From the NCBI GenBank assembly GCA_012976225.1, contig JAAVVG010000005.1, positions 1,042,223 through 1,106,222 on the forward strand: 64,000 nucleotides of DNA. The letters run 5' to 3'. The notes beneath the pieces are model-generated. The model was given only the letters and a program-made list of their open reading frames with translations. It did no database searches and was not told the DNA's origin. Within the stretch, counting starts at the first letter, position 1. The number at the start of each line of letters is the position of its first letter. The translations under genes were made by a program, and so were the position numbers. Positions 2-58,352 of the stretch are shown one piece after another. Source of the DNA: Golubevia sp. BC0850. Taxonomy: Eukaryota > Basidiomycota > Exobasidiomycetes > Golubeviales > Golubeviaceae.

Positions 2-3000
2 CACACCTTCAAGCATCTAGATCTCCAAGGTCGTAATTTGGAGATGGTCCCGATCTTCCTCTATCGACATGCGGATTGGATCGTCAGTCTGGATCTCTCT
101 GGGAATCCAATGTCTGATCTTCCTCTGGACTTCGTTCAACTCTGTACTGGTCTCAGGTCATTGAGGCTCTCGAATCTGGCTCTCAAGAGGATCCCTCAGA
201 GCGTCAGGCATAGCGAAACTCTCACTCATCTGGACGTCTCGAACAATCGTATCCCGGATCTATCTCACGTAGGATTGGACAACATGCCAGAGCTTCTCTC
301 AATCAAGATTCAGAACAATCGACTCTATGAAGTACCTCCTTACTTCACTAAGATCGAAACTCTCCGCTACCTCAACGTGTCAAACAACCGACTCGAGATC
401 TTCCCTTCAGTGATCTGTGGTATGGCTTCCTTGGTCGACCTGGATTTCTCTTTCAACGCCATCGCCTCCCTTCCTACTGAGCTCGGTCAACTTGGCAAAC
501 TCGAGCGTCTGGTACTAGTCGGAAACTCGTTGGACGCTCTTCCGGACTGCATGTCTGAACTGGTCAGCCTCCACACCATCGATCTAAGAAGAAATCTGAT
601 TCAAGAGGTCTCTCCGCTGTTCGGTCTTCCAAAACTCAAGGTGGTCCAGTGCGAGCACAATTCGATCAAGTCCTTCGAAGCAGCTTTCGGAGCTCATCTT
701 CGAACCTTGGAAGTCGGTCACAATCCTCTCAGCACAGTGACTCTCGGAGCTAGGATTCCTAGTGAGCTGACGGTGCTCAATCTATCATCCGCAAACATGG
801 CCAAGTTGGACGAAGACCTATTGACTCAACTTCCCTTCCTAACTGAGTTGATTCTAGATCGCAACCAGTTCCTCACGCTTCCAGACGCTTTGGGAGAGCT
901 CAAGAATCTCACTCGACTCTCTTGCAGCAACAACAACCTAGCAGCTCTACCGGATAGCATAGGACGGTTGGAAAAGCTTCGAAGGATTGACGTTCAGAAC
1001 AACAACCTCAAGCTGCTTCCAAGCGCTCTCTGGAATTGTGTTGAACTCAGCTCCATCAACGTCAGTTCGAACATCCTCGAATCGTTCCCTGCTCCTCCTC
1101 TCCCTACCGCACCTGAGCCCTCCGACTCACTTGGCTCCGCCATCCAAGCTCAAACTCAAGCCGCTCTCACCAACGGTGATTCCGAGAGGAAGAGCTCTGT
1201 AGGATCTCTCGGCGTCAACGCACCACCGATTCCAAACAAGCCTTTCCCTCTGATAGCCAGTCTCAAGAAGCTTCGCCTGGGAGACAACAGGTTGACGGAC
1301 GATGTCTTCAGCATTTTGGAACTTCTCACCTCTCTTGAAGTCCTCAATCTTAGCTTCAACGAAATCTATGAGATCCCCAACTTCAGTCTATTGAAGAATG
1401 TCAAACTGAGAGAGCTCTATCTCAGTGGAAACAATCTCAGCAGTCTTCCAGCTGACGATCTGGAACATCTCAACGAGGTCAGGATCCTTCACCTAAATGG
1501 AAACAAGCTTCAAACTCTTCCAGCTGAACTTGGAAGAATGCAAAAGTTGGTCAATCTGGATGTTGGAAACAACGTTCTGAAGTACAACATCGCCAACTGG
1601 CACTACGATTGGCATTGGAAATCGAATCCGAATCTTCGTTATCTCAATCTTTCTGGTAACAAGCGGTTCGAGATCAAATCGATCGAAGATGGGGCTAGAA
1701 GGAGGAACGTTTCTGACTTTGGTCGTCTAGCTCACCTCCGAGTCCTAGGTCTAATGGACGTAACTTTGCCAACTCCTTCTGCTGAGAAGTCGATGCCAAT
1801 TCCGGACGAGACGGACAACCGAAGAGTTCGTACTTCCTTCTCTCAGATCAATGGAATGGCTTACGGAGTCGCAGACGCTCTCGGAGGCTTCGACAATTTG
1901 AGCATCGTAGATGTTGTCACTCCAAACTTCAGGAAGAGAGACAACGAATGTCTGTTCGGAATGTTCGAAGGTCGAGGACATGGTTCGAACGCCGGAAGCA
2001 GGATCGCCAAGCATCTAGCTGAGTGGTGTAACTACAGGATCGAGTGGGAGATTAGGGAACTCTCTCGAAGTCAAAGGCTCCAATCTCTAGGAGCCAAGGA
2101 GGTTCTTCCAACTCCGGCTCAAGTCCCAGATGTCATGCGTAGAGCTTTCCTTCGTCTGGAGAAAGAGTATGCCGATCTACTGATGAACGAAGGGAGTCGA
2201 AAGATGTCTCAAGCTCAAGCGGTCGCAGCTAACGATGAGAGCAAGCACGCAGCTCCAGCCATCGCTTCAGCTTCGAATCGAAATCACTGGAGAGCCGGAG
2301 CTTCTGCTGTATTGGCCTACATTGTCGACAAGACTCTCTATGTTGCCAACGCTGGAGATGCTCTGGCCGTGCTCTCTCGAAACGGTGGTACAGCTCATCT
2401 GGTCAGCACCAAGCACGAACCTTTCGACAGAGACGAAACCCAGAGGATTAGGTCAGCTGAAGGATGGGTCTCTCTCCGAGGTTACGTCAACGACGTCCTG
2501 GACGTCTCGAGGTCTTTCGGATACTACCATCTCTCTCCTGTCGTCAACGCAGCTCCTGCCGTCACCACGATTCATTTGACTGACTCCGATGAGTTTGTCA
2601 TCTTGGCCAATCGAGTCCTGTGGGATCACATCTCTTACCAGACCGCAGTCGACATCGCTAGAATGGAAAGAGACGATCCGATGATTGCAGCTCAAAAGCT
2701 TCGAGACTTTGCCATCAGTTATGGAGCTGAAGAAAGTATTCTCATCATGGTCGTCGCTGTCAGCGATCTCTTCTTCAAACGTCAAAGGAGCGATGCCATG
2801 CCTTACGATCAAGCTGGAGACGCTTTCAAGAAGGCCAGCAATCGAAGAGGAAGAGACGAGCTTCCTGGAGATCGAACTCTGGCTCGTTTGGAGAGAGAGG
2901 TGGCGCCTCCAATTGGACATGTCGCTTTGGTCTTCACCGATATCAAGAACTCGACTTCACTTTGGGAGACAAATGGTGGAATGCATGCTGCTATGCGATT

Positions 3001-4219
3001 GCACAACTACCTTCTTCGAAGACAGCTCCGTACCATCGGTGGTTACGAGGTGAAAACTGAAGGAGATGCTTTCATGGTTTCTTTCCCTTCGGTGACTTCT
3101 GCTCTGCTTTGGTGTTTTACAGTTCAGCTTCAACTTCTTAGAGAGGATTGGCCGGTCGAAATCTTGGAGAGCGAAGACGGAAAAGAGGTTCTAGACTCCT
3201 CAGGAGAGTTGGTCGCTCGTGGTCTATCTGTCAGAATGGGAATCCATTGGGGAGTTCCTGTCTGTGAAGCTGATCCAATCACTCGTCGAATGGACTACTT
3301 TGGACCAATCGTCAATCGAGCAGCTAGGATCTCTGGAGCTGCAGATGGAGGTCAGATCATGGCAAGTCGAGATGTCGTCAGCGAACTCACAGCTCTTCTA
3401 GGAACTTTCAAACAGGAAGGAGCAGCAGGAGAAGAAGACAATGCTCCAGGACCTGAGGAAGTAGACGAAGACACTTTCAGAATGATGAACCCAAACGTTT
3501 CGAGAGACGTCGTTCTTCTTCGTAGAATGGGTTTCGGAATCTCTGAAGTCGGAGAACGTAGAATGAAAGGACTTGAAACTCCAGAATTACTCCATCTGGT
3601 CTATCCGAAACAACTGGCTGGAAGATTGGAAGCTAAACCTGATGCCCCTGCTCCTCAAGTCTTTGAACCTACTCTGCAACTTTTGGATATCGATGAGGTT
3701 AAACAGATTGGAATGCTCTGTCTAAGAATCGAAGCTCTTACAAACGACAAGGTTTTCCCTGGAATAGATCGACCCGAAGCTACTATAGCTGCTGCTACTG
3801 GATCCGAAGAAGGAGGGGAGATAGGAGAGCTAATGGGTGCTATGGAATCAGCTGCTCCTCTGAGTTCCATATCTAATGCCAACCCTGACAATCGAGTCAG
3901 AACAGTTTCTTCTGAAATCAAGGCTTCTCCCAATAGGAACTCTGCTTCAACTTTCAATTCGACGACCACTTCTCCAGCTCTTCGTAGAAAGGCAGTCGAA
4001 GCAACCTTGGCTCTGCACCCCGAGTTGTTGATCTATGCCATCAGAGATGATGCTACCGACGATGAACTCGCTGGAATCTTGGATCAGCTGGTCACTAGAA
4101 TCTCCAACGCGCTCAATTCTGTGGTCATGAAGAAGGTGTTGGGTCCTGAGTTCAATCTGGCTGAGATGGACCTGGCTTCAATCATGATTGCTCTAGGTCA
4201 AGGAACTTCAAGACCTTAG
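2..4219 (+). CDS. CYR1: Adenylate cyclase, 3' part (LRR, PP2C-like and cyclase domains)
   Basis: Makes cAMP from ATP and is the output of the Ras/G-protein-cAMP-PKA pathway in fungi. The frame is open from base 2 with no stop before the left edge, so the N-terminus (Ras-association region in known homologues) lies outside the window. Seen in order: about 20 leucine-rich repeats with LxxLxLxxN spacing (bases 2 to about 1750), a PP2C-like domain (about 1850-2780), then the class III cyclase domain starting near base 2920 with the metal-binding stretch VFTDIKNST, the EGDAFMVSF loop near 3060 and FGPIVNRAARI near 3300. A C-terminal tail follows, the region that binds cyclase-associated protein in yeast. 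No intron interrupts 4.2 kb, unlike every other multi-kb gene here. The domain order is diagnostic; the symbol follows the yeast gene. Confidence 0.96.
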   Translation, partial: HTFKHLDLQGRNLEMVPIFLYRHADWIVSLDLSGNPMSDLPLDFVQLCTGLRSLRLSNLALKRIPQSVRHSETLTHLDVSNNRIPDLSHVGLDNMPELLSIKIQNNRLYEVPPYFTKIETLRYLNVSNNRLEIFPSVICGMASLVDLDFSFNAIASLPTELGQLGKLERLVLVGNSLDALPDCMSELVSLHTIDLRRNLIQEVSPLFGLPKLKVVQCEHNSIKSFEAAFGAHLRTLEVGHNPLSTVTLGARIPSELTVLNLSSANMAKLDEDLLTQLPFLTELILDRNQFLTLPDALGELKNLTRLSCSNNNLAALPDSIGRLEKLRRIDVQNNNLKLLPSALWNCVELSSINVSSNILESFPAPPLPTAPEPSDSLGSAIQAQTQAALTNGDSERKSSVGSLGVNAPPIPNKPFPLIASLKKLRLGDNRLTDDVFSILELLTSLEVLNLSFNEIYEIPNFSLLKNVKLRELYLSGNNLSSLPADDLEHLNEVRILHLNGNKLQTLPAELGRMQKLVNLDVGNNVLKYNIANWHYDWHWKSNPNLRYLNLSGNKRFEIKSIEDGARRRNVSDFGRLAHLRVLGLMDVTLPTPSAEKSMPIPDETDNRRVRTSFSQINGMAYGVADALGGFDNLSIVDVVTPNFRKRDNECLFGMFEGRGHGSNAGSRIAKHLAEWCNYRIEWEIRELSRSQRLQSLGAKEVLPTPAQVPDVMRRAFLRLEKEYADLLMNEGSRKMSQAQAVAANDESKHAAPAIASASNRNHWRAGASAVLAYIVDKTLYVANAGDALAVLSRNGGTAHLVSTKHEPFDRDETQRIRSAEGWVSLRGYVNDVLDVSRSFGYYHLSPVVNAAPAVTTIHLTDSDEFVILANRVLWDHISYQTAVDIARMERDDPMIAAQKLRDFAISYGAEESILIMVVAVSDLFFKRQRSDAMPYDQAGDAFKKASNRRGRDELPGDRTLARLEREVAPPIGHVALVFTDIKNSTSLWETNGGMHAAMRLHNYLLRRQLRTIGGYEVKTEGDAFMVSFPSVTSALLWCFTVQLQLLREDWPVEILESEDGKEVLDSSGELVARGLSVRMGIHWGVPVCEADPITRRMDYFGPIVNRAARISGAADGGQIMASRDVVSELTALLGTFKQEGAAGEEDNAPGPEEVDEDTFRMMNPNVSRDVVLLRRMGFGISEVGERRMKGLETPELLHLVYPKQLAGRLEAKPDAPAPQVFEPTLQLLDIDEVKQIGMLCLRIEALTNDKVFPGIDRPEATIAAATGSEEGGEIGELMGAMESAAPLSSISNANPDNRVRTVSSEIKASPNRNSASTFNSTTTSPALRRKAVEATLALHPELLIYAIRDDATDDELAGILDQLVTRISNALNSVVMKKVLGPEFNLAEMDLASIMIALGQGTSRP

Positions 4220-6314: not shown

Positions 6315-7980
6315 ATGGATCAGCAAGTGGCCAGCTAGACAGCAGAGAGGCAGCCAGCATCCTTCGATTCACTTATAGAGGATCTGATACCTCCGATCGT
6401 CGAGAAAATTAGGACTTGAGCGGAGGAAGAAGAGGTTGGGCCGGATTGAGATAAAAGAAGAGCAGAGAACAGAAGGTGAGCCATTGAAAATGGGCCCGGC
6501 TCTCTGTTTGCGAGCTCACCTTTTCTTTCAATTGGTTTCCTCGATCAGATCAAGAGACTTAGCCCCCGCTGCTCTCTCTAGGAGCTCCAAGTCCGGATAC
6601 AATCGTTGGCTTCCTCATCTTCTTCAAACGGTCACTCTCTCGTTGTTCGATGTCCACTGCCTCTGCGATCTCCTGGAAAGAGATGCTCCAAAAGCTAACT
6701 TTGTCAAGATCCTCAGCATCATTCCTGTTGCAAAAGATGCTTCGACAGAGGATGGAGCTTCCTTCATGGAGCTCTGGACACAAGACCAGATCTCTGTTGG
6801 ACCACTATGCCCGAAGCAGGATGGATGATTATTGGATTTGTTCTTGAGAAGTGCTGGAACCTCCAGACTTTAAATATAAGCGGCAGCATCTTCAGCTTCC
6901 CTCTCGCGGAGCACAAAGGAGTTCCCTTCCATTTCCTGACACACTCTCTGAGAAGACTGTTCCTTGGAAGCACTGGGGATCTAGATGATTCGATGAACGC
7001 TCAGAGCGTGATTTGGATCCTGGTCTTCTGCGTTCATCTACGTCAAGCTTCTCTCTCTTTCACCTTAACGCTCGAGGGTTATAATTTTCTTCTGGAGTAT
7101 TCGGAAACGTTTAAAGGCCTCTCTAAAGTCGAACAGCTCGCTCTCGCATCCTGCTTCATCTAGGATGATGGCTCTATCAACAACAGAGCATGGTGAGGGA
7201 GAAAATGGAACAAAGAATTGGTGGGAGGAAATTCAGAGACTACAGCGGGTTCGCTTCCTTCAGGTTACCAAATCTCTCGAATCGCTGGAGTTTCTTGGTG
7301 GAGCTGGATTCACTACCTCTGGGATAAACTTGAGCGCACAAGTTTCGGTAGACTGTCTCTCAAGCCTCTCCAACTCTTACTCTTCAATCAAACACCTTCG
7401 CCTCATCAACCTCTTTCCCCCGCACTCCAGCAAGACAGATCTCTCAATCTTCACAAACCTAAAGACCTTGAGTCAGGATTGTCTCATGCTTCAACAGATG
7501 AAGACATGAAAGCTAGGTTCCTCGCTGTCAAGCGTCGAGATTTTACATCTTCCATTCTACAGGTTTGCAGAGTCTCAACCCAGGCATGACGATTTCGAAG
7601 AAGAAAGGCTTCTTTCAGCTATTGTCTCAAATAGGGTTCTGCCAAATTTAACAGAACTGGTACTTCCTTCTAGGCCAATCGATGTAGACACTGGAGAGGC
7701 GAGCTCTCCACGCTCAGTCAGACTTTGGAAGGAGTCGAGGGAAGCGCTGAGAGAGAACGAGCGGGTCAAGAGCGGAAAGGTCAAGCTGAGGACTTTAGAT
7801 GTAGGAGAGACTGGTAAGTAAGGTTTGAAAATGCTCTTTTTAGCGCTGCTTTTGGTGCCTGGGGGTCATCTAGCCTCGAGCTCTCTCTTTTTTCACTTCC
7901 TATCCTTCCCAGTTGGCGATGGATCAAAAGGAGAGAACTGTCTCTCCACTGTTGCATGGATCTCTCCCTCTCCTCAATAA
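6315..7980 (+). pseudogene. LRR/F-box-like family member, copy A (disrupted)
   Basis: Member of a local five-copy family of unknown function (A to E). The predicted protein has an acidic N-terminal part, a conserved SGYNRWLPHLLQ block, then leucine-rich segments (KCWNLQTLNI, VEQLALASC, SIKHLRLINL) resembling the LRR part of fungal F-box proteins; I see no convincing F-box. Copy A has an early TAG eight codons in, further stops near 6416 and 6449 and frame changes near 6830 and 7163, so it cannot make the full product. Its terminal intron (GTAAGT donor at 7812, acceptor before 7913) and 68-base last exon ending at 7980 are intact and match copy D. From 7357 onward the sequence is an exact inverted copy of 20677 downward. 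Confidence 0.7.
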
Positions 7981-8557
7981 TGAGTCCTCAACTCTGTTTC
8001 AGAAAGGAATCAGTGATCTCGTCAATGCATCGATTGCTTTTACACGGATGAGGAAGAGAAGGAGATGAAGGACGACGCGATGACGATTGACGTGCGGTCA
8101 GCCGAGGGGAGAACAACTCAACTCTCAGACTCTTCAAAAAGCAATGTTAGACATTTCCTTGAAAGTCTACTTCTCAATTGCCCGTCAGCATCCCGGTTTG
8201 ATTGGATAATCAAGTCTCAATTCAAACTTCAAGCAGACGAGAAGCCTTGAGTGATGAGTCACGAGTCATTGAGCTCGTTTTTATTGTGATCTCCCGACAA
8301 TTCAAAGTGATGAAGCATGGAATTGAATGATTAAAACGTGAAATCTACAAATTCTAATCTAGAATTGAAAGCAAACAATGTGCAAAGGTTGGAAAAGCAG
8401 AGAAGCGAGAAACAGAATCAAGGAATTCAACCTCTTCCTTTACCCTTACCTCTTCCACCACCTCTCTTACTAGGTCTAGCATTTTTCTCCCTTCTCCTTT
8501 CTTTAAGAGCCCTATCCTTCTGAATCTGCATAGCAGATTTGACTTCATTCTTAGATC
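7357..8557. repeat. Left arm of 1.2 kb inverted repeat IR1
   Basis: Reverse complement of 19477-20677; paired positions always sum to 28034, so there is no indel in 1201 bases, and every segment compared was identical. It carries the 3' part of LRR copy A, intergenic DNA and the last 131 bases of a DBP10-like coding end. At the inner edge (8557/19477) identity stops after GATC inside DBP10. At the outer edge it stops within the LRR coding region, where both sides remain homologous but diverged. Confidence 0.93.
8427..8557 (-). pseudogene. Orphan copy of the DBP10 C-terminal coding end
   Basis: Encodes on the minus strand the last 42 codons and stop of the helicase gene at 19477-19607, ending in the same GKGKGRG tail. 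It has no upstream exons or promoter of its own. It was carried here as part of the inverted repeat, so the functional gene on the right is the likely source. Confidence 0.9.
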
Positions 8558-8789
8558 ACCCAAGGAGAGGCTGGAGGCCAGACTACTAGAAGTGGGGCCC
8601 CTTTGAACAGCTACCTGCTGCTGTAATCCTCTTCTCTCTGCTTGATCCAGTAAGATCGAATCATTCGGAACTTTGATCGAGGAAATAATTGAATCAAGGA
8701 AGAAAAGAGAAGGTTGAAGGTTGTGGTCAAAGGTGAAGAAGTCCCAAGAAGGTTTCTCTCCCAACCCGACCCATCCAAGAACCCTCAAG

Positions 8790-12215: not shown

Positions 12216-13661
12216 ATGCAATTCTCCAAGATCGCCCTTTCTACCATCATTGTTTGCACCGCAGTATCAGCAGCTCCAGCTATGGTGAGTCTTCCCTTCG
12301 CCTATGAATTACTGTCCTCGATTCCTGTTCTGATGTGTCTTGACCTTTTTTTTCTCTTCGTCAGAGCGGTGAATCTAACTACGAACGCAGAGATGATGCT
12401 CCAGCCATCTCCAAAGTGAGTTGCCACAACGTTCCTCTCTCTCTCTTTGCAATCCTTCACTGACACTCTTTTCTTCTGGACTCTTCTTTCACTCTAGACG
12501 AAATGGGCAGCTGGTCTCGGAGCTGCTGTTTTTGTTGCAACTGCTGGTGAGTTACATCCTAGCTACATCTTCCTGACAGGGAAGAAAGAGGGAAAGTCTG
12601 ACCGTCCCTGTTTCTTCTTGTGCCGCAGTCTACAACGGGTTGAAGGGTAACGGGTACTTAAAGGAGGCCGAGGATTTCAACTCAGCTTATGGCTCTTTGG
12701 TGAGTCCTGTTTCTAGCTCTTTCACTTATCTTTCTGGAGTACTCCTGACGCGACTGTCCTTTCTGTCTGCAGATCGATTCCGATTCAGCCCCCTCCGTCG
12801 AGAAGAGAGATCCTCTGAACGCCGCTGCTATGATTGGTTTAACTGTAGGAGCGATCGCCAAGGGGATGTTCGGCTCTAAAGAAGCTGCTGATGAGTTCTT
12901 AGCTTCTCCAGAAGGTCAAGAATTTGCTTCTAAGATGGCTGTGAGTTTGTGATCGCTTTTCAGTCGTCAGCTCTGAACGACGTTCGTCACATCTTTCTGA
13001 CCGTATTCTTTTCGTTCTCACTTTCTTCAGTTCATCGAGTCTCGCGACTTTTCTGAAGCTCCCGAGAAGAGACTTGGGCCAGGTTTCGGAGCTGTAATCC
13101 CAACCTCTGTCAAGGCCAAGTTTGCTGCTACCGTCCTCGGAAGCATTGGAGCTGGAGCTGGTGAGTTACCATTGAGCTCCATCAGCGAGTTACTCAAACA
13201 GAGTCTTCTGTGTTCTTACCCCTTCCTATTCAATCCATCCTCCCACTTTCCAGGCGGTTGGTTCCTTACCAAAGAAGGTCAAGATGCTCTCGCAGAGCTG
13301 GCTTCAGAAGAGGACGACTCTCTTGTTGTAAGTGTTTTTCAACTTTAGAAGAATTTATCCCTCATCAGAGGGGTCTCTTCTTCGAACTCTTCTCAAGCCA
13401 CGGTTCCGTCTCTGAACTTCCCTCGTCTCTCTACTCTCACTTCGCCAGACTCGCGACAACGAGAAAAGACTAGGTGTCACACCTGCCAAGTTCAGTTACA
13501 AGGCCGCAGCTGCAGCTCTTGCAGCCTCTTTTGGACTTGGAAGTATCCTCAAAAACATCGCTACCAGAGATTTCGAAGAATCCGACTCTGCTTCTTTAAT
13601 CAACTTGATCAGAGATGAGATTGAAGCTCGTAACGTCGATGACTTCGATCTTTTAGGTTAA
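12216..13661 (+). CDS. Secreted dibasic-site polyprotein with four ~60-residue modules (copy 1)
   Basis: Function unknown. Eight exons (12216-12284, 12365-12415, 12498-12546, 12629-12699, 12773-12940, 13031-13160, 13254-13327, 13449-13661) encode 274 residues. Residues 1-20 are a clear signal peptide ending VSAA. Dibasic sites at 31-32, 91-92, 149-150 and 210-211 cut the rest into modules of 60, 58, 61 and 63 residues. Each module has a Gly/Ala-rich hydrophobic stretch with scattered Lys, then an acidic segment; the first three end in EKR. The layout is that of a Kex2-processed precursor, as in fungal repeat-peptide precursors. No cysteines occur after the signal peptide. It has a TATA box and a paralogue at 38484-39931. 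Alternatively the hydrophobic stretches could be membrane helices of one uncut protein. Confidence 0.85.
12699..13314 (+). repeat. 616-base conversion tract shared with secreted gene 2
   Basis: Identical, exons and introns alike, to 38976-39591 with a constant offset of 26277. It covers intron 4, exon 5, intron 5, exon 6, intron 6 and most of exon 7. Immediately outside, coding and intron sequences are visibly diverged. Confidence 0.93.
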
Positions 13662-18400: not shown

Positions 18401-19607
18401 GAAGGGGCTAGGATTATGAAAGAGAGGAGAAGAAAATTGGATGAAAAGATTGAGGCTGGGAAAAAGAGAAAGATTGGGGAATTGAAAAAGGTGGAAAGAG
18501 AAAGTGAAGATGAGGATGAGGAGGATGATGAGATGGATGTGGGAGAGGATGATGATGATGGAATTGATGGATTGAAGGAAAGTGAGAGGGAAGAATTGGA
18601 AGAAGCGGATGAAGATGATATTGAGGTGAGTCTTTTCTTACTCAGAGTTTGAAATTTTCAGATCGGCTGTGTCTTACTCTCTTTCCCCTCTTTCATCTTC
18701 CTCTCAGAACGTCTTTGGAGCTCAACCGAAAAAGAAAGCCAGAACTCAAGAACCAAGTACTAAAGTCAAAGGTAGAAAAGATTACAGAGATCCAGATTTC
18801 TACTTAGATTACGAGCAAAAGGGAGCCAAAGCTGAAAAAGGTTATAATTTGAACGAAGGACCTGGACCTTCAAATTTCCAATCTGCTGCTTCTTCACTTT
18901 CTTTCTCTTTAACCAATGATGATACCGGAACTTTTGGAACTCAATCTCAAAGAGTTAATGCTTCAAGATGGGATACCAAGAAGAAGAAATTCGTTCAAGG
19001 AAATGGGGTTGGAGCTGATAATAAGAAATTAATCAGAACTGAAAGTGGTGGGAAATTACCTGCTAGTTTTAGAAGTGGTAGATTCGATGAATGGAGTAAG
19101 AAGGAGAGATTACGATTACCTAAAGTTGGAGAAGGTGAATTGGAAGGTAGAGGTAGCGTAGGAAGGGGAGGCTCTCGAGGTGGGAGAGGTGGAGGTAGAG
19201 GTGGTGGAAATATGGGAGCTGGAAGTGGCAGAGGAGGTTATAGGCATAATAGCTTTACTGCTCCAAAGCAGTTAGATCCTAAACAACATGATTATCATAA
19301 AAAGGTTAAAGCTAGAAATGAGAAGGCTGAGAAGAATGCTGGAGAATATGGGGAAGCTAGAGGTGATAGTTCTTTCTCATCTAGAGGTGGTTCGAGAGGT
19401 GGAAGTTCGAGGGGTGGCGCTAGAGGGAGAGGAGCGACTAGGGGAAGTTCAAGAGGTGGGGCAAGAGGTGGTGGGAGATCTAAGAATGAAGTCAAATCTG
19501 CTATGCAGATTCAGAAGGATAGGGCTCTTAAAGAAAGGAGAAGGGAGAAAAATGCTAGACCTAGTAAGAGAGGTGGTGGAAGAGGTAAGGGTAAAGGAAG
19601 AGGTTGA
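15426..19607 (+). CDS. DBP10: ATP-dependent RNA helicase DBP10 (DDX54 type)
   Basis: DEAD-box helicase of the nucleolus needed for 60S ribosomal subunit assembly. Exons 15426-15813, 16443-18625 and 18708-19607 give 1156 residues. The first join rebuilds the family signature GGGSFQSMGLHPSLL before the Q motif GYTQPTPIQ. Seen next: ARTGSGKT (I), PSRELALQ (Ia), TPGR (Ib), DEAD with the DBP10-typical extension RLFELGFQEQ (II), SAT (III), ARGID (V) and HRVGRTAR (VI). The last exon holds the DBP10 C-terminal domain (KGYNLNEGP, RWDTKKKKF) and a long RGG-rich tail. Intron 1 is 629 bases. The last 131 bases lie inside inverted repeat IR1, so an exact second copy of the tail exists at 8427-8557. Confidence 0.95.
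15814..16442 (+). other. Long first intron of DBP10 with open frames
   Basis: 629 bases between GTGAGT and CCAG. The exon frame stays open for 48 more codons (to 15959) and a second frame is open from 15956 to 16183; both read like protein. I recognise neither. Skipping the intron restores the family signature, so it is spliced in the main product. Confidence 0.7.
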
Positions 19608-20677
19608 ATTCCTTGATTCTGTTTCTCGCTTCTCTGCTTTTCCAACCTTTGCACATTGTTTGCTTTCAATTCTAGATTAGAATTTGTAGATTTCACGTTT
19701 TAATCATTCAATTCCATGCTTCATCACTTTGAATTGTCGGGAGATCACAATAAAAACGAGCTCAATGACTCGTGACTCATCACTCAAGGCTTCTCGTCTG
19801 CTTGAAGTTTGAATTGAGACTTGATTATCCAATCAAACCGGGATGCTGACGGGCAATTGAGAAGTAGACTTTCAAGGAAATGTCTAACATTGCTTTTTGA
19901 AGAGTCTGAGAGTTGAGTTGTTCTCCCCTCGGCTGACCGCACGTCAATCGTCATCGCGTCGTCCTTCATCTCCTTCTCTTCCTCATCCGTGTAAAAGCAA
20001 TCGATGCATTGACGAGATCACTGATTCCTTTCTGAAACAGAGTTGAGGACTCATTATTGAGGAGAGGGAGAGATCCATGCAACAGTGGAGAGACAGTTCT
20101 CTCCTTTTGATCCATCGCCAACTGGGAAGGATAGGAAGTGAAAAAAGAGAGAGCTCGAGGCTAGATGACCCCCAGGCACCAAAAGCAGCGCTAAAAAGAG
20201 CATTTTCAAACCTTACTTACCAGTCTCTCCTACATCTAAAGTCCTCAGCTTGACCTTTCCGCTCTTGACCCGCTCGTTCTCTCTCAGCGCTTCCCTCGAC
20301 TCCTTCCAAAGTCTGACTGAGCGTGGAGAGCTCGCCTCTCCAGTGTCTACATCGATTGGCCTAGAAGGAAGTACCAGTTCTGTTAAATTTGGCAGAACCC
20401 TATTTGAGACAATAGCTGAAAGAAGCCTTTCTTCTTCGAAATCGTCATGCCTGGGTTGAGACTCTGCAAACCTGTAGAATGGAAGATGTAAAATCTCGAC
20501 GCTTGACAGCGAGGAACCTAGCTTTCATGTCTTCATCTGTTGAAGCATGAGACAATCCTGACTCAAGGTCTTTAGGTTTGTGAAGATTGAGAGATCTGTC
20601 TTGCTGGAGTGCGGGGGAAAGAGGTTGATGAGGCGAAGGTGTTTGATTGAAGAGTAAGAGTTGGAGAGGCTTGAGAG
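19477..20677. repeat. Right arm of 1.2 kb inverted repeat IR1
   Basis: Reverse complement of 7357-8557 without indels. It holds the 3' end of DBP10, the intergenic DNA and the 3' part of LRR copy B. This arm is the probable source, because here the DBP10 end is joined to its own gene. Confidence 0.93.
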
Positions 20678-20710
20678 GCATTCCATTGTGACTTCTGCTC
20701 CTGACACTTC
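20054..20710 (-). pseudogene. LRR family fragment, copy B (3' part only)
   Basis: Minus-strand 3' part of the LRR family gene: terminal exon 20054-20121, intron, then the upstream coding region. It is identical to copy A up to 20677. Just beyond, VSGAEVTMECL aligns with copy C (MSDADVTTECL) but no longer matches copy A. Homology fades above about 20710-20800, so the 5' two thirds are missing. It lies tail to tail with DBP10. Confidence 0.75.
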
Positions 20711-24689: not shown

Positions 24690-24956
24690 TGCGAGTATTA
24701 GATTAGTTTGTGAGGTTGAGATTGCGATGTCGTGTGCAGTGGGAACTGGGAAGCAAAGAACGTCCGAAAGTTGGAGAGAGGAGAAGGCGAGAAGGCGATA
24801 CTCCACATTCGGCACTCCTTCGGCACTTGATCGACCTCCTTCGTGGTTCCTTCTCTTCCGAACTCTCTGCTGCAATGATCTGATGTTTCTCGTACATATC
24901 TATCCCATACTTTACTTGTGGGAGTAGTAGACTAGTAGGGTAGCAATTGCACAGGA

Positions 24957-25229
24957 AAAGGGTCCGAGATTGGCTCGCAGTTGCGCTGGTGCGGCGATCT
25001 CTAGACTGGCAAAAAAGTTCAAGAGCGAAAACTCAGACCCTCTTTTTTTCTTCCTTCCCAACCATCGCATCTCTTTGCTTCTTTACCATCCGTTAGCCAG
25101 TCAATACAGGAAAGGTTAGTACTGTGATGGACAACACTTGACTAAACTGCTGCCTTCAAGTACAACGTCGCCAGGCGAGCTGAGATCTGTTCTTGTCCTT
25201 TTTCTCTTTCCTTCTCCCCAGCTTTCATC
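24957..25229 (+). promoter_or_regulatory. Repeated 5' flank of LRR copy C with palindrome
   Basis: Shares the GGGTCCGAGATTGGCTCGC block with copy A (6040) and copy D. The 11-base palindrome TCGCCAGGCGA lies at 25168-25178, 52 bases before the ATG. From 25048 the sequence is an exact inverted copy of 37619 downward. Confidence 0.5.
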
Positions 25230-26701
25230 ATGGATCAGCAAGTCGCCAGTCAGACAGTAGAGAGGCAGTCAACAGCCTTCCATTCACTTCCAGAGGATCC
25301 CACACCTCCCATTGTCGAGGAGGTCATGATTGGGACGGGAAGAGCGAAGAGGTTGGGCCAGATTGGAAGGAAAAGGGAGCAGAGAACAGAAGGTGAGTCG
25401 TTAAAGATCGGCCTGTCTCTCTGTTTGTGAGCTCACCTTTTCTTCCATTTGGATTCTCCGATCAGATCAAGAGATTTAACTCTCTCAGCTCTGGCTGCGA
25501 GCTCCGAGTCCGGATACAATCGTTGGCTTCCTCATCTCCTTCAAGCTGTCAGTCTCTCGCTGATCAACGTTCACTGTCTCTACGATCTCCTGGAAAATGA
25601 TGCTTCTAAAGGTCTCTTTGTCAAGAGCATCAGCACCATGCCTATTCCAGAAGATGCTTCGCCCGCGGATGGTGCTTCCTTTGAAAAGCTCTGGGGATAA
25701 CTCCAGCTCGCTCTTGGACGGAAGGTTACTCAGGACGAAGCAGAATGGTTTATTCTTGGATTTATGATTGAGAAGTGCCGGAAGCTCCAGACTCTAATCC
25801 TACGTCGCGGCATCTTCCACTTCCCTCTCACGGAGCAGAAAGGGGTTCCCTTCCATTTCCTGACATACTTTCTCGGGAAATTATTCCTTGGAGGCTCTGA
25901 GAATATATCCGGAATGATGAACGCTCAGAACATGATTTGGAACCTAGTCTTCTGCCCTCATCTACGTCAAGCCTCTCTCCATTTCATTGTGACGCTAGAA
26001 GGCTACAACTTTCTTTTGGAGTATTCAGAAATTTTCAAAGGTTTGTCAAAAGTCAAACAACTCGCTCTCTCACCCTTCTTAATCCGGGATGATAGTTCTA
26101 TCGACAGAAGGGTGTGGATAGGGAGAAAATGGAGCAAATATTTGGGGGGAGGAAATCTAGAGACGACAGCGGTTTATCAATTTCTTCAGGTTACCGACTC
26201 TCTGGATTCTATCGAAATAGCTTTCAGAGGTGCAATCACTGTTTCCAGAGTCATGTCAGATGCAGATGTCACAACGGAATGTCTCTCAAGTCTCTTCAAC
26301 TCTTATTCTTCCATCAAACATCTTCGCCTCATCGATCTTAATCCTACGCAATCCATCAAGACGGATCTTTCAATCTTCACAAATCTGAAGATCTTGAGCC
26401 TAAATTGTTTCGTGCTGGAGGGAATGAAGACAGGAGCACTAGGCTCCTCGCTGTCAAGCGCCGAGATTCTTCATCTTCCATTCTACAGGTTCGTTGAATC
26501 TACTCCCAGAACCGACGACTTTGAAGACGAGGGTCTACTATACAAAGTCCTCTCGAACGGGTTCCTTCCAAACCTGAGACAGATAGTTCTACCATCTAGA
26601 CCAATTGACGCAAACGCTCTAGAAGCAACATCCTCCCGCTCAGTAATCCTTTGGGAAGCGGGAAGGAAGCTGTTGAGAGACAGCGAGATGGTCAAAAGTG
26701 G
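25048..26701. repeat. Left arm of 1.65 kb inverted repeat IR2
   Basis: Reverse complement of 35966-37619; paired positions always sum to 62667, so no indel over 1654 bases, and no mismatch was found in the stretches compared. The arms are LRR copies C and D. Outside the arms both flanks stay homologous but clearly differ: on one side the promoter block, on the other the last codons. Confidence 0.93.
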
Positions 26702-26904
26702 GAAGGTCAAGCTCAGGAAGTTAGAGGTAGGAGAACCAAGTGTGTTAGGCATTTGAAAATCTCGCTCTGATACACAGTAGCTCAAGACATACTGGACACA
26801 AGGAACTGAATTTCCCTCTATTCCTTCCTATTGCAATGGGCGATGCTTTCAAGGGAGAGAACTGTATCTCAACCCGAGATTGGATTTCTCCTTTTCCTCG
26901 TTGA
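25230..26904 (+). pseudogene. LRR/F-box-like family member, copy C
   Basis: Exon 1 from 25230 (MDQQVASQTVERQ) ends with a GTGAGT donor at 25394; exon 2 follows the acceptor at 25467. The frame that joins exon 2 is a different one from that of the ATG, so exon 1 carries a frameshift near 25323-25340. An in-frame TAA at 25698 interrupts the body; copies D and E have the same stop. After it the frame is open to 26756 (ATG at 25764, 330 codons) with repeated leucine-rich strands (LQTLIL, VKQLALS, SIKHLRLID, LKILSLNC). The terminal intron is lost and the last exon relic (26837-26904) lacks its AG acceptor. A shortened product from 25764 is possible. Confidence 0.65.
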
Positions 26905-35772: not shown

Positions 35773-37437
35773 TCAGTTAGGAATGGGAGAGATCCATTTA
35801 ATCGTAGAAAGACAATTCTCTCCCTTGGATTCATTGCCAACTGTGATACGATGAAGAATCAGAATACTTCAGATCAGAGACTTCTCACGATTCTACGCCC
35901 GTCATTTGAAAGGCAGATCTTACTCACCTGTCTCTCCAACTTCAACGGTTCTCAGCTTTGCCTTTCCACTTTTGACCATCTCGCTGTCTCTCAACAGCTT
36001 CCTTCCCGCTTCCCAAAGGATTACTGAGCGGGAGGATGTTGCTTCTAGAGCGTTTGCGTCAATTGGTCTAGATGGTAGAACTATCTGTCTCAGGTTTGGA
36101 AGGAACCCGTTCGAGAGGACTTTGTATAGTAGACCCTCGTCTTCAAAGTCGTCGGTTCTGGGAGTAGATTCAACGAACCTGTAGAATGGAAGATGAAGAA
36201 TCTCGGCGCTTGACAGCGAGGAGCCTAGTGCTCCTGTCTTCATTCCCTCCAGCACGAAACAATTTAGGCTCAAGATCTTCAGATTTGTGAAGATTGAAAG
36301 ATCCGTCTTGATGGATTGCGTAGGATTAAGATCGATGAGGCGAAGATGTTTGATGGAAGAATAAGAGTTGAAGAGACTTGAGAGACATTCCGTTGTGACA
36401 TCTGCATCTGACATGACTCTGGAAACAGTGATTGCACCTCTGAAAGCTATTTCGATAGAATCCAGAGAGTCGGTAACCTGAAGAAATTGATAAACCGCTG
36501 TCGTCTCTAGATTTCCTCCCCCCAAATATTTGCTCCATTTTCTCCCTATCCACACCCTTCTGTCGATAGAACTATCATCCCGGATTAAGAAGGGTGAGAG
36601 AGCGAGTTGTTTGACTTTTGACAAACCTTTGAAAATTTCTGAATACTCCAAAAGAAAGTTGTAGCCTTCTAGCGTCACAATGAAATGGAGAGAGGCTTGA
36701 CGTAGATGAGGGCAGAAGACTAGGTTCCAAATCATGTTCTGAGCGTTCATCATTCCGGATATATTCTCAGAGCCTCCAAGGAATAATTTCCCGAGAAAGT
36801 ATGTCAGGAAATGGAAGGGAACCCCTTTCTGCTCCGTGAGAGGGAAGTGGAAGATGCCGCGACGTAGGATTAGAGTCTGGAGCTTCCGGCACTTCTCAAT
36901 CATAAATCCAAGAATAAACCATTCTGCTTCGTCCTGAGTAACCTTCCGTCCAAGAGCGAGCTGGAGTTATCCCCAGAGCTTTTCAAAGGAAGCACCATCC
37001 GCGGGCGAAGCATCTTCTGGAATAGGCATGGTGCTGATGCTCTTGACAAAGAGACCTTTAGAAGCATCATTTTCCAGGAGATCGTAGAGACAGTGAACGT
37101 TGATCAGCGAGAGACTGACAGCTTGAAGGAGATGAGGAAGCCAACGATTGTATCCGGACTCGGAGCTCGCAGCCAGAGCTGAGAGAGTTAAATCTCTTGA
37201 TCTGATCGGAGAATCCAAATGGAAGAAAAGGTGAGCTCACAAACAGAGAGACAGGCCGATCTTTAACGACTCACCTTCTGTTCTCTGCTCCCTTTTCCTT
37301 CCAATCTGGCCCAACCTCTTCGCTCTTCCCGTCCCAATCATGACCTCCTCGACAATGGGAGGTGTGGGATCCTCTGGAAGTGAATGGAAGGCTGTTGACT
37401 GCCTCTCTACTGTCTGACTGGCGACTTGCTGATCCAT
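35773..37437 (-). pseudogene. LRR/F-box-like family member, copy D
   Basis: Inverted copy of C. It shares the exon 1 frameshift and the TAA (here at 36967-36969), then a frame open from ATG 36903. Unlike C, its 3' end is intact: donor GTGAGT at 35927, acceptor after 35840 and a 68-base last exon 35773-35840 with the conserved SKGENCLST and WISPIPN end also found in copy A. So D is the best preserved 3' end of the family. If the open part is expressed from 36903 it would give about 350 residues. Confidence 0.65.
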
Positions 37438-37619
37438 GATGAAAGCTGGGGAGAAGGAAAGAGAAAAAGGACAAGAACAGATCTCAGCTCGCCTGGCGAC
37501 GTTGTACTTGAAGGCAGCAGTTTAGTCAAGTGTTGTCCATCACAGTACTAACCTTTCCTGTATTGACTGGCTAACGGATGGTAAAGAAGCAAAGAGATGC
37601 GATGGTTGGGAAGGAAGAA
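35966..37619. repeat. Right arm of 1.65 kb inverted repeat IR2
   Basis: Reverse complement of 25048-26701. The pair encloses 9.3 kb with PBS2, GPI10 and the arrestin-like gene. Confidence 0.93.
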
Positions 37620-38483
37620 GAAAAGAGGGTCTGAGTTGTCGCTCTTGAACTTTTTCGCTAATCTATAGAGATCCGCACCAGCGCAAGTGCGAGCCAATTT
37701 CGGACCCCTTTCCTAATTGCTATCCTTACTTCTCCCACAAGGAAAGTATGGGATAGATACCTACGAGTCGTACAAAGAGTTCCCGATTGGTCAACTTTTA
37801 TCCTTTTCGAAAGAATGATAATGAAGGATCGCTTTCAAATCAACCCTCGAGGACTGGCCTGACCTTTGCTTCACTCGAAGCGCAAAGATTCGAATGACCC
37901 AAAACCTCTGGAAGCATTTGTTCTCTATAAAAGCCTCTGATTGTTCCTTTTCTTATCGAATGATATGCGAGGTTGAAGATCTCTATCTTAAAACGTTCTC
38001 TAATCTAAATATCTAAATGATCACCGATCACCGATCACCTTTCAAAGAATGCATAAGCATTGTTTAAGGACTTGATTCTCCGTAGAGAGAGGATTTAAAG
38101 TGTTAGAGAATGTCTTGTGCTCTTTATTAACACATGTAGAGTCTCAAACTGAGTACTGAAGGAAAAAACCCGATAAGGTGAGTTGAAGACTGAAGTCGTC
38201 GCCAACAACAGGTCAGGCGAGGTTCGGAAATTCTCTCATCCCTGCATTCTCTAATTCAGGGTATCTCTCTCTGGAAGAAACTCATAAAGGGGCAGCTTAT
38301 TTCGTACCATCGAATCTTCCCCACAACTTTCTTTCTTATTTATTTCTTTCTTTATCGCTTCTTTATATTTCAGCCTCATTTTCTTCAACTTCTTTCAGCT
38401 TTGATAGCGCCTTTTTTTTCTACTTTTTTCTTTCCATTTTCTCTTATTTCTTGAGCCTTTAAATCAGCTTTCTTCAAATCAGG
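37620..38483 (+). promoter_or_regulatory. Upstream region of secreted gene 2
   Basis: The left end is the diverged 5' flank of LRR copy D. From about 37825 the DNA resembles the region before secreted gene 1. The shared 19-mer CAACAACAGGTCAGGCGAG is at 38203-38221, and a TATA-like CATAAAGG at 38284-38291. A TCGCC half-site at 38199 precedes GGCGA at 38216, the two halves of the palindrome seen before LRR copies C and D. Confidence 0.5.
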
Positions 38484-39931
38484 ATGCAATTCTCCAAGAT
38501 CGCCCTTTCTACCATCATGGTTTCTACACTGGTGTCAGCAGCTCCAGTCATAGTAAGTCTTTCCTGCGCCTACAAATGGGTTGTCCCAGATTGAATCCTG
38601 ATATTTTTTTACCTTTCTTCTTTAATCTTCAGAGCGCTGAATCTAATAACGAACGCAGAGATCCTCCCACACGCGCGGTGAGTTGCCACAATTCTTCCCT
38701 TCTCTTCCATTTCACCTCTGATCCTCAACTGACAACTTTTCTTCTCAACTCACTTCTTACTCTAGGCAACAGTTCATCTTGGGATCGGAGCCGCTATATT
38801 CCTTGGTATGGGTGGTGAGTGTCACCTTCTCAACGAGAAGGGAAACTCAGAAAGATCGAAGAGACATCCTCATGCAGATCTGACCAGCCCTTGTTTCTTC
38901 GCCAGTCTACAACGGGTTGAAGGGTAATGGGTATATCAAGGAGGCTGAAGATTTCAAATCTGCTTGGGTTTCTTCCGTGAGTCCTGTTTCTAGCTCTTTC
39001 ACTTATCTTTCTGGAGTACTCCTGACGCGACTGTCCTTTCTGTCTGCAGATCGATTCCGATTCAGCCCCCTCCGTCGAGAAGAGAGATCCTCTGAACGCC
39101 GCTGCTATGATTGGTTTAACTGTAGGAGCGATCGCCAAGGGGATGTTCGGCTCTAAAGAAGCTGCTGATGAGTTCTTAGCTTCTCCAGAAGGTCAAGAAT
39201 TTGCTTCTAAGATGGCTGTGAGTTTGTGATCGCTTTTCAGTCGTCAGCTCTGAACGACGTTCGTCACATCTTTCTGACCGTATTCTTTTCGTTCTCACTT
39301 TCTTCAGTTCATCGAGTCTCGCGACTTTTCTGAAGCTCCCGAGAAGAGACTTGGGCCAGGTTTCGGAGCTGTAATCCCAACCTCTGTCAAGGCCAAGTTT
39401 GCTGCTACCGTCCTCGGAAGCATTGGAGCTGGAGCTGGTGAGTTACCATTGAGCTCCATCAGCGAGTTACTCAAACAGAGTCTTCTGTGTTCTTACCCCT
39501 TCCTATTCAATCCATCCTCCCACTTTCCAGGCGGTTGGTTCCTTACCAAAGAAGGTCAAGATGCTCTCGCAGAGCTGGCTTCAGAAGAGGATGTCTCTCT
39601 CGTTGTGAGTGTTTCTCAAATCCTCGGTAGATGAACATCTTCTCTTAACCTTCATCTTCTCTGGCTTCTGTCACTGACCTTTTCTTTTCCCTCTTCTTTT
39701 CGTCTATCTCTTCCACAGACTCGCGACAATGAGAAGAGACTAGGAATGAGACCCGTCAAATTCAATTACAAGATCGCAGCTGCCGCTATTGCGGGTTCAT
39801 TCGCACTCGGATCTGCTCTCAAGAACATTGTCACCCCTGACAAGGAAGCGTCTGACTCTACTGCTTCGATCAACTCGATCAGAGATGAGATCGAAGCTCG
39901 CAATGTTGATGACTTCGATCTTTTGGGCTAA
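38484..39931 (+). CDS. Secreted dibasic-site polyprotein with four modules (copy 2)
   Basis: Paralogue of the gene at 12216-13661. Exons 38484-38552, 38633-38677, 38766-38814, 38906-38976, 39050-39217, 39308-39437, 39531-39604 and 39719-39931 give 272 residues. It has the same signal peptide start (MQFSKIALSTI), the same dibasic sites (shifted by two residues after the first) and the same module pattern. Exons 1-4 and 8 differ at many positions, changing amino acids in modules 1 and 4, whereas modules 2 and 3 are identical apart from the end of exon 7. Intact reading frame and splice sites argue that both copies are functional. No known domain. Confidence 0.85.
38976..39591 (+). repeat. 616-base conversion tract shared with secreted gene 1
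   Basis: Identical to 12699-13314 including three introns; diverged on both sides within a few bases. Confidence 0.93.
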
Positions 39932-41192: not shown

Positions 41193-42476
41193 ATGGATCC
41201 AGGAATCATCGCATCTAAAAAGGAACCACCGACGCTAGGTTCTCTTTTAGACGACGTCATTCCTCCATTGTTGAAGAGATCAGGAGTTGGGCCGAGGAAG
41301 AATAGGTTTGGCCAGATTGGGAAGAAAGGAGAGAGGAGAGAAGAAGGTGATCACTCGTCTTCTGAGTACCGCTCTCTTTCTCTCTACCCTTTCCAATTCT
41401 ATGTTTCTCCCTTATTCTTCCTTTCACCAGGTCAAGAGACCCAGCCCTCGCTGCGCTGGCTAGGAGCTGCAAGTCCGGATACAATCGTTGGCTTCCTCAT
41501 CTCCTTCAAGCTGTCAGTCTCTCGCTGATCAACGTTCACTGTCTCTACGATCTCCTGGAAAATGATGCTTCTAAAGGTCTCTTTGTCAAGAGCATCAGCA
41601 CCATGCCTATTCCAGAAGATGCTTCGCCCGCGGATGGTGCTTCCTTTGAAAAGCTCTGGGGATAACTCCAGCTCGCTCTTGGACGGAAGGTTACTCAGGA
41701 CGAAGCAGAATGGTTTATTCTTGGATTTATGATTGAGAAGTGCCGGAAGCTCCAGACTCTAATCCTACGTCGCGGCATCTTCCACTTCCCTCTCACGGAG
41801 CAGAAAGGGGTTCCCTTCCATTTCCTGACATACTTTCTCGGGAAATTATTCCTTGGAGGCTCTGAGAATATATCCGGAATGATGAACGCTCAGAACATGA
41901 TTTGGAACCTAGTCTTCTGCCCTCATCTACGTCAAGCCTCTCTCCATTTCATTGTGACGCTAGAAGGCTACAACTTTCTTTTGGAGTATTCAGAAATTTT
42001 CAAAGGTTTGTCAAAAGTCAAACAACTCGCTCTCTCACCCTTCTTAATCCGGGATGATAGTTCTATCGACAGAAGGGTGTGGATAGGGAGAAAATGGAGC
42101 AAATATTTGGGGGGAGGAAATCTAGAGACGACAGCGGTTTATCAATTTCTTCAGGTTACCGACTCTCTGGATTCTATCGAAATAGCTTTCAGAGGTGCAA
42201 TCACTGTTTCCAGAGTCATGTCAGATGCAGATGTCACAACGGAATGTCTCTCAAGTCTCTTCAACTCTTATTCTTCCATCAAACATCTTCGCCTCATCGA
42301 TCTTAATCCTACGCAATCCATCAAGACGGATCTTTCAATCTTCACAAATCTGAAGATCTTGAGCCTAAATTGTTTCGTGCTGGAGGGAATGAAGACAGGA
42401 GCACTAGGCTCCTCGCTGTCAAGCGCCGAGATTCTTCATCTTCCATTCTACAGGTTCGTTGAATCTACTCCCAGAA
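41193..42476 (+). pseudogene. LRR/F-box-like family member, copy E, truncated
   Basis: The 5' part (41193-41471) is diverged (MDPGIIASKKEPP) with an apparent one-base loss near 41265-41270 relative to copy C. From 41472 to 42476 it shows no difference from copy C over 1005 bases (offset 15965), including the internal TAA (41663-41665). At 42477 the LRR coding sequence stops abruptly and retroelement sequence begins, so the last 80 or so codons and the terminal exon are lost. Confidence 0.75.
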
Positions 42477-43708
42477 ATACATGAACCACAACTCGATCCT
42501 CATCAGACCATTCCCATCCTCATTCACTTCAAGAACCAAACCTTTCCCTCTCAAGTACTTATCGATAATGGGGCTGAGGGAGACTTTATCGACGAACAAC
42601 TGGTACAATCACTTCAACTTCCAAGGAAGCAACTAACCCACTCCCGGATTATTTCGGCCGTTGACGGCCGAACCTTAGACTCTGCATCATCAGAGAACAC
42701 CTCAATCTCTTTCGCTCTTAACCATCACCATCTGGAAGAACAGCCTTTCTCCATCACCAAACTTAAGACAGCGCCAATACTCCTTTGGAAAACCATGGCT
42801 TAAGAAACATCACCCTCTTATAAACTGGACTAATAACTCTATCACATTTCCTTCGGACTATTGCAACGCAAACTGCGCTCCAAAACTGTCATGCGACCCG
42901 GGGCGTAAAACTTCCTCTCCTAGAACCTATGAAACAAGACCTTACAGCACTTCGATTAAAACTTTTGAACATGTGGATCCAAAGTCCAAAGTCGGATCAA
43001 ACTTACGAGAATGCAACCTACAGACCTGCGATTACACCTTTTGAAACTACAGCTTACAGAACTACGATTAAATCTTTTGAACCCTTGGATCCAAAGTTGG
43101 ATCAAACTTACGAGAAAACAGCTTGCAGACATACAATCAACCATCTTGAAACTCACACTTTGAAACCTATGGCCCTTCTTGGGAATACATTACCAGTACC
43201 TCCTCAACCTTCGGAGAAGGTAGCTAACCTTAACATTGTAATTTTGCCTCATGTGGGCATCACTTCAGCAACTCGGCCAGTGTTACAGACTCTTGGTATC
43301 TAAGGGCCTGATCCCGAAGAACCCAACTACTAGGATCTCTAGAACATCCCAGATGCTTCCTTGACTTGTTGTATGTTTGCTGCGCTATGTACATATCCCT
43401 GTTCCAGATTCCAGAACCTCACACAGCCCTGACACAGGTTTTATACAGCCACTCCAATGACTATATAAGCCACCTCTCAAACTGTACATAGGAAGCTCCT
43501 CGTCTGATATCGAACTCTCACGTCCTTTCTACCTGCTCAAGTTACTTAGCCCCTAGTTCAAGTCTCAACCTCAAATCTTTCCCACTCAACCCTTAGCCTT
43601 TGCCACCAAGTTCCCATCGCCGATTCCCAACTGCCCTCAGCCTTTGTCAAGTCTCAAGTCCACTTTCTTAGCAATCTACCTAACCTCTACTAGCGAACCC
43701 CCGTTATA
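42477..43708 (+). mobile_element. Truncated Ty3/Gypsy-type element with 3' LTR
   Basis: Begins inside a retropepsin-like region: VLIDNGAEGDFIDEQLV (near 42557) is the protease active-site strand, and PWLKKHHPLINW follows in another frame near 42795. Both resemble the protease of the full-length element at 53992-59863 but are diverged. Reverse transcriptase and integrase are absent. From about 43440 to 43708 the sequence matches the LTR of that element in the opposite orientation, ending CCCCGTTATA. It is a decayed or internally deleted relative. Confidence 0.75.
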
Positions 43709-53991: not shown

Positions 53992-54381
53992 TGTAACGGG
54001 GTTAACTAGTAGAAGATAGGTAGAGTGCTAAGTAGGTAGACTTGAGACTTGACAAAGGCTGAGGGCAGTTGGGAATCAGCGTTGGGAACTTGGTGGCAAA
54101 GGCTAAGGGTGGAGTGGCAAAGACTTGAGGTTGAGACTTGACTTAGGGGACTAAGGAACTTGAGCAGGTAGAAAGGACGTAGGAATTCAATATCAGATGA
54201 GGAACTATCTAAGTACAATTGGGGAGTGCTTTATATATGTTTGAGAGGGTTAAGAACAAAGGGATTTAGGAACAAAGGTTGGAACAATGTAGCACAGGAA
54301 CAGGGCCAGGGAACAAGGGACAAAGAGACATGGAGACAAAAGAAAGAACAAAGGGGTCAAGGGTACCAAGGATCTGTGACA
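53992..54381 (-). repeat. 3' LTR of the chromovirus
   Basis: 390 bases, begins TGTAACGGGG and ends CTGTGACA on the plus strand. It is flanked on the left by the target duplication CACCG. Confidence 0.93.
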
Positions 54382-54385
54382 GAAG

Positions 54386-54396
54386 CCCCCTTTTTT
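54386..54396 (-). other. Polypurine tract of the chromovirus
   Basis: AAAAAAGGGGG when read on the minus strand (plus-strand second-strand primer site of the element), five bases from the 3' LTR. Confidence 0.8.
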
Positions 54397-54415
54397 AGAT
54401 CGACACCTGACGATC

Positions 54416-57886: not shown

Positions 57887-58344
57887 CTAGCTCTTAGCTG
57901 CCAGTCCTATTGCAAGTGGCATGGCATTGACTGCGGTTCTAGAAGTTTGGCAGGAGGTGTGGCAAAAGGTAGAGTTGAAGGAAAGGGAATTTGTGCGCCA
58001 ATTGATGTCTGGATTGTGTTTCTTTAACCAAGGGGTGCCGAGAATGAGTTTCAGGTGATCTAGTTCATGATCTTGAGTGTAAAAGTGGCATAGTGAGTGA
58101 CTGGGGAGGCAAATGGAGTTCCATTTGCTGTGTAGAATTGGCAAGGTTTTGGAAGTGGAAAAATGGGTAGGTGATTTGAAAGGACCAGATCTTTATGGAT
58201 CAAGTTGACTTCTGCACCACCATCAACAAGTGCGTGGCTAGAGACGTTGATATTTTGATGTTGAAGTTGGCAAGGTAGGAAGATGCGGTCCATAGAGGTG
58301 GGTTCTAGAGCGAGGGATTGGGATTGGATAGGGGAGGCTTTCAA
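57887..58344 (-). pseudogene. Retropepsin region of the chromovirus, frame-shifted
   Basis: The active-site strand ALVDGGAEVNLIHKDLV lies in the frame open at 58060-58344, while the C-terminal part LKLILGTPWLKKHNPDINW is in another frame (57887-58144), the one that runs on into pol. The switch falls near 58075-58100 and there is no intron signal, so a one-base change is likely. A TAG at 57887-57889 (followed by CAA) separates this frame from pol. Confidence 0.8.
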
Positions 58345-58352
58345 AGTTTGAC

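Follow-up and report, generated by a model that had tools for sequence, protein, structure and literature searches.

Structure of W1 and of the related gene W2

W1 lies on the forward strand at positions 12216-13661 of the window, by which we mean the whole stretch of DNA analysed, 64,000 nucleotides from Golubevia sp. BC0850. The gene has eight exons (12216-12284, 12365-12415, 12498-12546, 12629-12699, 12773-12940, 13031-13160, 13254-13327 and 13449-13661), and the reading frame is open across all eight when they are joined, giving 274 codons with no internal stop. At each of the seven introns the donor reads GTGAGT or GTAAGT and the acceptor YAG. Exon 1 encodes a signal-peptide-like start, as the first-pass annotation had proposed; judged by eye from the translation, it consists of a hydrophobic stretch followed by SAAP, and the exon ends in a phase-0 intron after residue 23. 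Intron 6 (93 nt) is free of stops and could be retained, giving a 305-residue reading that our home-made gene predictor prefers. Splicing of this intron is supported because the homologous D modules of two related loci, L022 and L023, run across the intron position in a single exon and lack the insert.

A second gene of the same exon structure, W2, lies at 38484-39931 (forward strand; eight exons, 272 residues), with four dibasic sites at matching places and the same order of modules as W1 (C-A-D-E, types described below). The two genes are identical over a tract of 615 bp, introns included, at 12700-13314 in W1 and 38977-39591 in W2 (both on the forward strand). The flanks of the tract have diverged: exons 1-4 and 8, the outer introns and 400-nt flanking segments are 51-84% identical. 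The tract is the signature of a recent sequence exchange between W1 and W2, confined to the middle modules.

W1 and W2 are each flanked on both sides by a repeated gene, in inverted copies, that looks LRR/F-box-like by eye and has no Pfam match; copies, both inverted and direct, occur in the window at 6429-8562, 19472-20706, 24953-26756, 35919-37714 and 41404-42504. This gene was considered as a linked partner and set aside, since it is dispersed (at least 133 genome matches, with 121 of 353 candidates scored) and not specific.

Within the W1 protein, pairs of basic residues ([KR][KR]) are found only at residues 31-32 (RR, 12386-12391), 91-92 (KR, 12803-12808), 149-150 (KR, 13067-13072) and 210-211 (KR, 13464-13469), all on the forward strand and the last three as part of EKR. 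Cutting at these KR and RR pairs would give the signal/propeptide part and four further fragments, five in all. Piece 1 (60 residues, 33-92; 12392-12808) contains three introns and is of module type C; piece 2 (58 residues, 93-150; 12809-13072) is of type A and is predicted to form a hydrophobic helix followed by two short helices; piece 3 (61 residues, 151-211; 13073-13469) is of type D. These types were assigned by similarity to modules of other genes. Piece 4 (63 residues, 212-274; 13470-13658) is of type E and carries a C-terminal NVDDFDLLG tail that is common to other family members. All four pieces lie on the forward strand and contain a hydrophobic stretch rich in Gly and Ala.

These sites and sizes, with three pieces ending in EKR, are exactly those given in the first-pass annotation, whose observation is confirmed; its interpretation is partly supported. 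Even spacing had been called improbable by chance, and when four sites are placed at random the pieces fall within 5 residues of each other in 0.023% of trials, by a criterion that was chosen post hoc with the data already seen. The claim does not extend to the number of sites, which alone is weak evidence and unremarkable for the composition: shuffled versions of the mature part have a mean of 2.3 dibasic sites, and 17% of them have four or more. Likewise, the plan said to be common to the pieces holds for composition and not for sequence homology. Only pieces 2 and 3 resemble each other more than shuffled sequences do (p=0.0015; p 0.07-0.63 for the other five pairs). The pieces are not four copies of one repeated module, but different module types that reappear in another order in other genes.

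A family with reordered modules

The suggestion of a possible new family stands, and the family is larger than had been noted. At least 29 related loci are present in the Golubevia sp. BC0850 assembly (25.77 Mb, 64 contigs), 27 of them outside the window and two inside. The first search gave 50 exon-wise matches and further queries were added; the count is a lower bound, as given by the search output. The weakest loci, C17:68472 and C12:213519, were included on an E-value near 0.02 in a single search together with a signal-peptide-like start in their models, and at one locus (L046) the models place two genes. The 29 loci are spread over nine contigs, with eight on C61, a contig that makes up 4.2% of the assembly.

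Spliced models were produced with the home-made predictor, aided by module similarity; they are rough, and several are over-extended at one end. Partial or decayed genes may underlie six models that are short or uncertain (L054, L050, L058, L040, L044 and L047). Of 26 family models, 25 have a phase-0 first intron at residue 19-36, right behind the signal exon. Introns of phase 0 are also seen repeatedly close to the ends of modules in the models listed, alongside phase-1 and some phase-2 introns.

Fragments of the family also occur in public protein sets (P0001-P0018). Some are 97.6-100% identical to loci of this assembly, as from the same or a near strain, and others are 40-90% identical, as from related species. 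Given these fragments, the family is not confined to the Golubevia sp. BC0850 genome.

For comparison of module order, we use a library of 11 types, which is our own grouping, drawn from the family itself; each model is read by its best hits. Read in this way, W1 and W2 are C-A-D-E, L023 is C-A-B-C-A-D-F-E, and L022 is C-A-B-C-A-D-F-E-F-E. Shorter related orders are C-A-F-F-E (L024), A-B-C-F-E (L053) and A-B-F (L027), and other genes use other types, with H-G-H-G in L042, G-H-I-H-G-H in L043 and K-K-B-J in L048. L054 has no library match at the cut-off used. Because module types recur in other orders, the close relatives of the W1 pieces are found in other genes rather than within W1.

In an alignment of 20 modules, K24, E25 and R49 are invariant, and D28, S41, K42 and A44 nearly so. 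A C-terminal tail of the DDFDLLG type is present in 11 of the 29 models, and in alternative models of L035, L037, L047 and L052 as well. In W1 the tail is encoded at 13632-13658 of the window; DDFDLLG and its variants are kept across very different precursors.

Pairwise dN/dS ratios, calculated by NG86 with doubtful model ends included, are 0.33 for W1/W2, 0.15 for L022/L023, 0.39 for L043/L042, 0.34 for L035/L043, 0.36 for L024/L023 and 0.71 for L032/L038. For L027/L023, dS is saturated at 3.3, and for L025/L023 no dS value was obtained. The averages of the six pairs with a usable ratio (0.15 to 0.71) show no sign of positive selection, and the genes of the family look mostly constrained.

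Placement and context of the dibasic sites

Across 25 genes, a dibasic pair adjoins 48 of the 64 starts of modules other than type F, as compared with a mean of 9.8 and a maximum of 20 of 64 for random positions in the same proteins (2000 trials). The 16 starts with no pair in the tested stretch include the first modules of W1 and W2, where the RR sits six to eight residues upstream of that stretch. F modules have a dibasic start in one of 11 cases.

The residue that follows KR or RR is L (47), D (19), E (12) or V (1) at 79 of 108 sites, against a background of 30%. At cleaved Kex2 sites, acidic residues and valine or leucine are over-represented directly after the pair, as described in PMC2515848, and the bias in the W1 family is in line with this P1' preference. 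EKR occurs 54 times in the family compared with 2.0 times in shuffles, and dibasic pairs of all kinds 123 times compared with 86 (sd 7.3); with non-independent paralogues and imperfect models, these dibasic counts overstate the strength of the case.

When L022 is compared with L023, the linkers change in length and sequence, and the KR pairs and module cores stay; L022 also has one extra piece, absent from L023, that carries its own KR. Four fragments from other assemblies (P0006, P0008, P0009 and P0016), which are 40-85% identical to the loci described here and not equal to them, have KR or RR at the module start; a further fragment, P0012, starts in mid-module and does not cover this position.

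A search of the genome finds a single kexin-type P domain. The gene that encodes it lies on contig C5 and also carries an S8 domain, and its product has a stretch that by eye resembles a membrane span. Three lines of sequence evidence, namely position, sequence context and constraint, favour the dibasic sites of the W1 family being functional.

Properties and likely role of the peptides

Without the basic pair, the W1 pieces are 56-63 residues long, with a net charge of -4 to -6 and a mean hydropathy of 1.26-1.43 over the best 19 residues. A 19-residue mean above 1.6 is reached by 7 of the 78 family pieces of at least 30 residues and by none of the four from W1, so that the sequence does not favour a multi-pass membrane protein. 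The W1 pieces are net acidic and moderately hydrophobic, whereas typical membrane-lytic peptides are cationic. AlphaFold2, run on the exon of piece 2 with three sequences, predicts helices at 14-33, 36-44 and 46-55 (mean pLDDT 75); the model of piece 4 was discarded as unusable (pLDDT 58). We infer that the family's peptides are helical and partly hydrophobic, that many types include a charged helix, and that they would act at membranes or interfaces. The acidic linker is possibly trimmed at a recurrent R-D.

No known counterpart had been named for the modules, and searches of Pfam and the PDB return no significant relative. The W1 protein has no Pfam match; 20 modules searched against Pfam give two families, each in one member, with best E-values of 0.014 and 0.03, which we take as chance. 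Of two PDB sequence searches, one gives no match and the other a single match at E 0.084, likewise taken as chance. The PDB fold search returns eight matches with E-values of up to 10, of which none reaches 0.001. A significant match to a membrane protein family that stays uncut, named beforehand as evidence against peptide release, is not seen in Pfam or the PDB. Among the openly licensed (CC0, CC BY or CC BY-SA) papers listed, none shows a printed description of the family. The family looks previously undescribed in the resources searched, the known candidates Rep1 and Ece1 having been compared by description.

Like the Kex2-processed repeat proteins (KEPs), W1 has a signal-peptide-like start and several pieces between KR or RR pairs, and a kexin is encoded in the genome. 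The KEP surveys PMC6339444 and PMC7329392 describe the detection of precursors by at least three similar repeats lying between kexin sites. A single motif type is present in 1114 of the 1193 KEPs of PMC6339444, and in PMC7329392 the type with the greatest expansion reaches 18.5 KEPs per strain, a number obtained by a different way of counting from our loci. The four W1 pieces, in contrast, are mostly unlike each other, and their types are shared between genes. W1 lacks three similar repeats, with pieces 2 and 3 alone matching above shuffles in our own comparison, made by shuffling rather than by the published pipelines, and is therefore not filed as a strict KEP; it should work like one. Precursors with unlike modules are probably missed by such surveys, because those described in PMC6339444 and PMC7329392 seek similar repeats.

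In architecture, Rep1 and Ece1 seem nearest to W1, as far as the descriptions in PMC4617103, PMC2515848, PMC12153327 and PMC9769878 go. Rep1 of Ustilago maydis has repeats of 34-55 residues and is cut at Kex2 sites into amphipathic peptides of 35-53 residues that form surface-active fibrils (PMC4617103); it is described as having ten strongly conserved repeats and a long terminal fragment (PMC2515848). Compared by description only, W1 shares with it the polyprotein plan, the Kex2 sites and a similar order of peptide size, and differs in its diverse modules (one of six piece pairs is above shuffles) and in belonging to a multigene family. Ece1 of Candida albicans, as described in PMC12153327, has 271 residues and seven dispersed KR sites that delimit eight short pieces, of which the active one (31 residues) is alpha-helical and amphipathic. 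W1 resembles it, again by description only, in precursor length, dispersed KR and several pieces, but has four pieces of ~60 residues and paralogues with shuffled modules; its pieces of 56-63 residues with net charge -4 to -6 are unlike candidalysin, an amphipathic helix of ~31 residues between KR sites. Dikaritins, which are ustiloxin-type RiPPs, also derive from a Kex2-type polyprotein (PMC7329392). They differ in their repeated, cyclised cores, and often have DUF3328 (UstY-type) genes nearby; DUF3328 was found in none of the 20 window translations scanned, a subset of the window.

With a probability of roughly two in three, we regard W1 as a secreted Kex2-type polyprotein of a large family with shuffled modules, releasing peptides that act at membranes or interfaces. 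The gene structure, dibasic punctuation, family, shuffled module order, constraint and kexin gene on which this reading draws are shown by the sequence. Secretion, cleavage and the role at membranes or surfaces would proceed as follows. After removal of the signal peptide, a Golgi Kex2-type kexin would cut after KR or RR, and a putative Kex1-type carboxypeptidase would trim the basic residues to leave four peptides of ~56-63 residues. Each peptide would present its Gly/Ala-rich hydrophobic stretch, followed in many types by a charged helix of the pattern K-E-A/G-x-D...S-K-L-A, and would close with a variable acidic linker. Members of the family carry different combinations of ~10 module types, and the phase-0 introns behind the signal exon and near module ends, together with tract exchange, would ease the shuffling. 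The peptides would most likely act by insertion, self-assembly or coating.

A broader proposal, which we put forward only tentatively, is that of a combinatorial system in which ~10 modules, set off from each other by kexin sites and in many cases also by phase-0 introns, are recombined among ~29 secreted precursors, so that each gene yields a distinct cocktail of helical, interface-active peptides. If true, the system would stand beside venom or bacteriocin repertoires as their fungal equivalent.

Two more specific roles can be weighed, and we consider neither of them likely. In one, the peptides are antagonistic, harming competitors, grazers or a host by permeabilising their membranes or by some other toxicity, as a diversifying repertoire. 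The large family, the turnover of modules, the exchange between copies and the database matches, of which those listed all come from apparently the same or related species, are consistent with this role, and Ece1, as described in PMC12153327, is a precedent for a helical peptide from a KR-punctuated polyprotein; yet the dN/dS ratios of the six usable pairs indicate constraint rather than positive selection, and the W1 pieces are acidic. The other, on which we would place similarly limited odds, is a Rep1-like coat on hyphae or spores that alters wettability and attachment. The fibrils formed by Rep1 peptides (PMC4617103) and the hydrophobic stretch of every W1 piece argue for a coat, against which ~29 diverged loci are, in our judgement, many, and W1 modules are mostly not conserved among themselves, unlike the strongly conserved Rep1 repeats described in PMC2515848. 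Hydrophobin matches above the Pfam cut-off in the genome also make a replacement of hydrophobins unnecessary, and that variant of the idea is weakened.

It is improbable that the precursor stays uncut, as one secreted or membrane protein with incidental dibasic pairs. Some conserved KR sites in native proteins of other fungi do appear to stay uncut, as described in PMC2515848, and four sites are within chance for the composition of W1, but the even spacing, the placement at module boundaries, the P1' bias and the persistence of KR amid varying linkers, as well as the 71 of 78 pieces below the hydropathy typical of a membrane span, speak against it. Least probable are peptide signals of pheromone or quorum type: ascomycete alpha pheromones do come from Kex2 polyproteins but are described as 9-24 residues long (PMC6339444), against ~60 for the W1 pieces, and the modules within one precursor are not identical.

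Under the preferred reading of W1 as a processed polyprotein, the family suggests that peptide modules can pass between precursors, and that repeat-based searches overlook some of the peptides that fungi secrete. It also supplies defined modules for synthesis and assay.

Some further features were seen in passing. The hydrophobin matches on contig C6 (82176, 178708, 477303 and 528537) form pairs of opposite orientation and equal score, which suggests an inverted duplication. In the window itself, 44-4219 encodes an adenylate-cyclase-type protein with LRR, PP2C and cyclase domains, as is typical of fungi, and 54015-59730 holds what by eye is a Gypsy-type retroelement, with long gag- and pol-like frames and a 233-nt direct repeat close to each end, the two copies being 99% identical.
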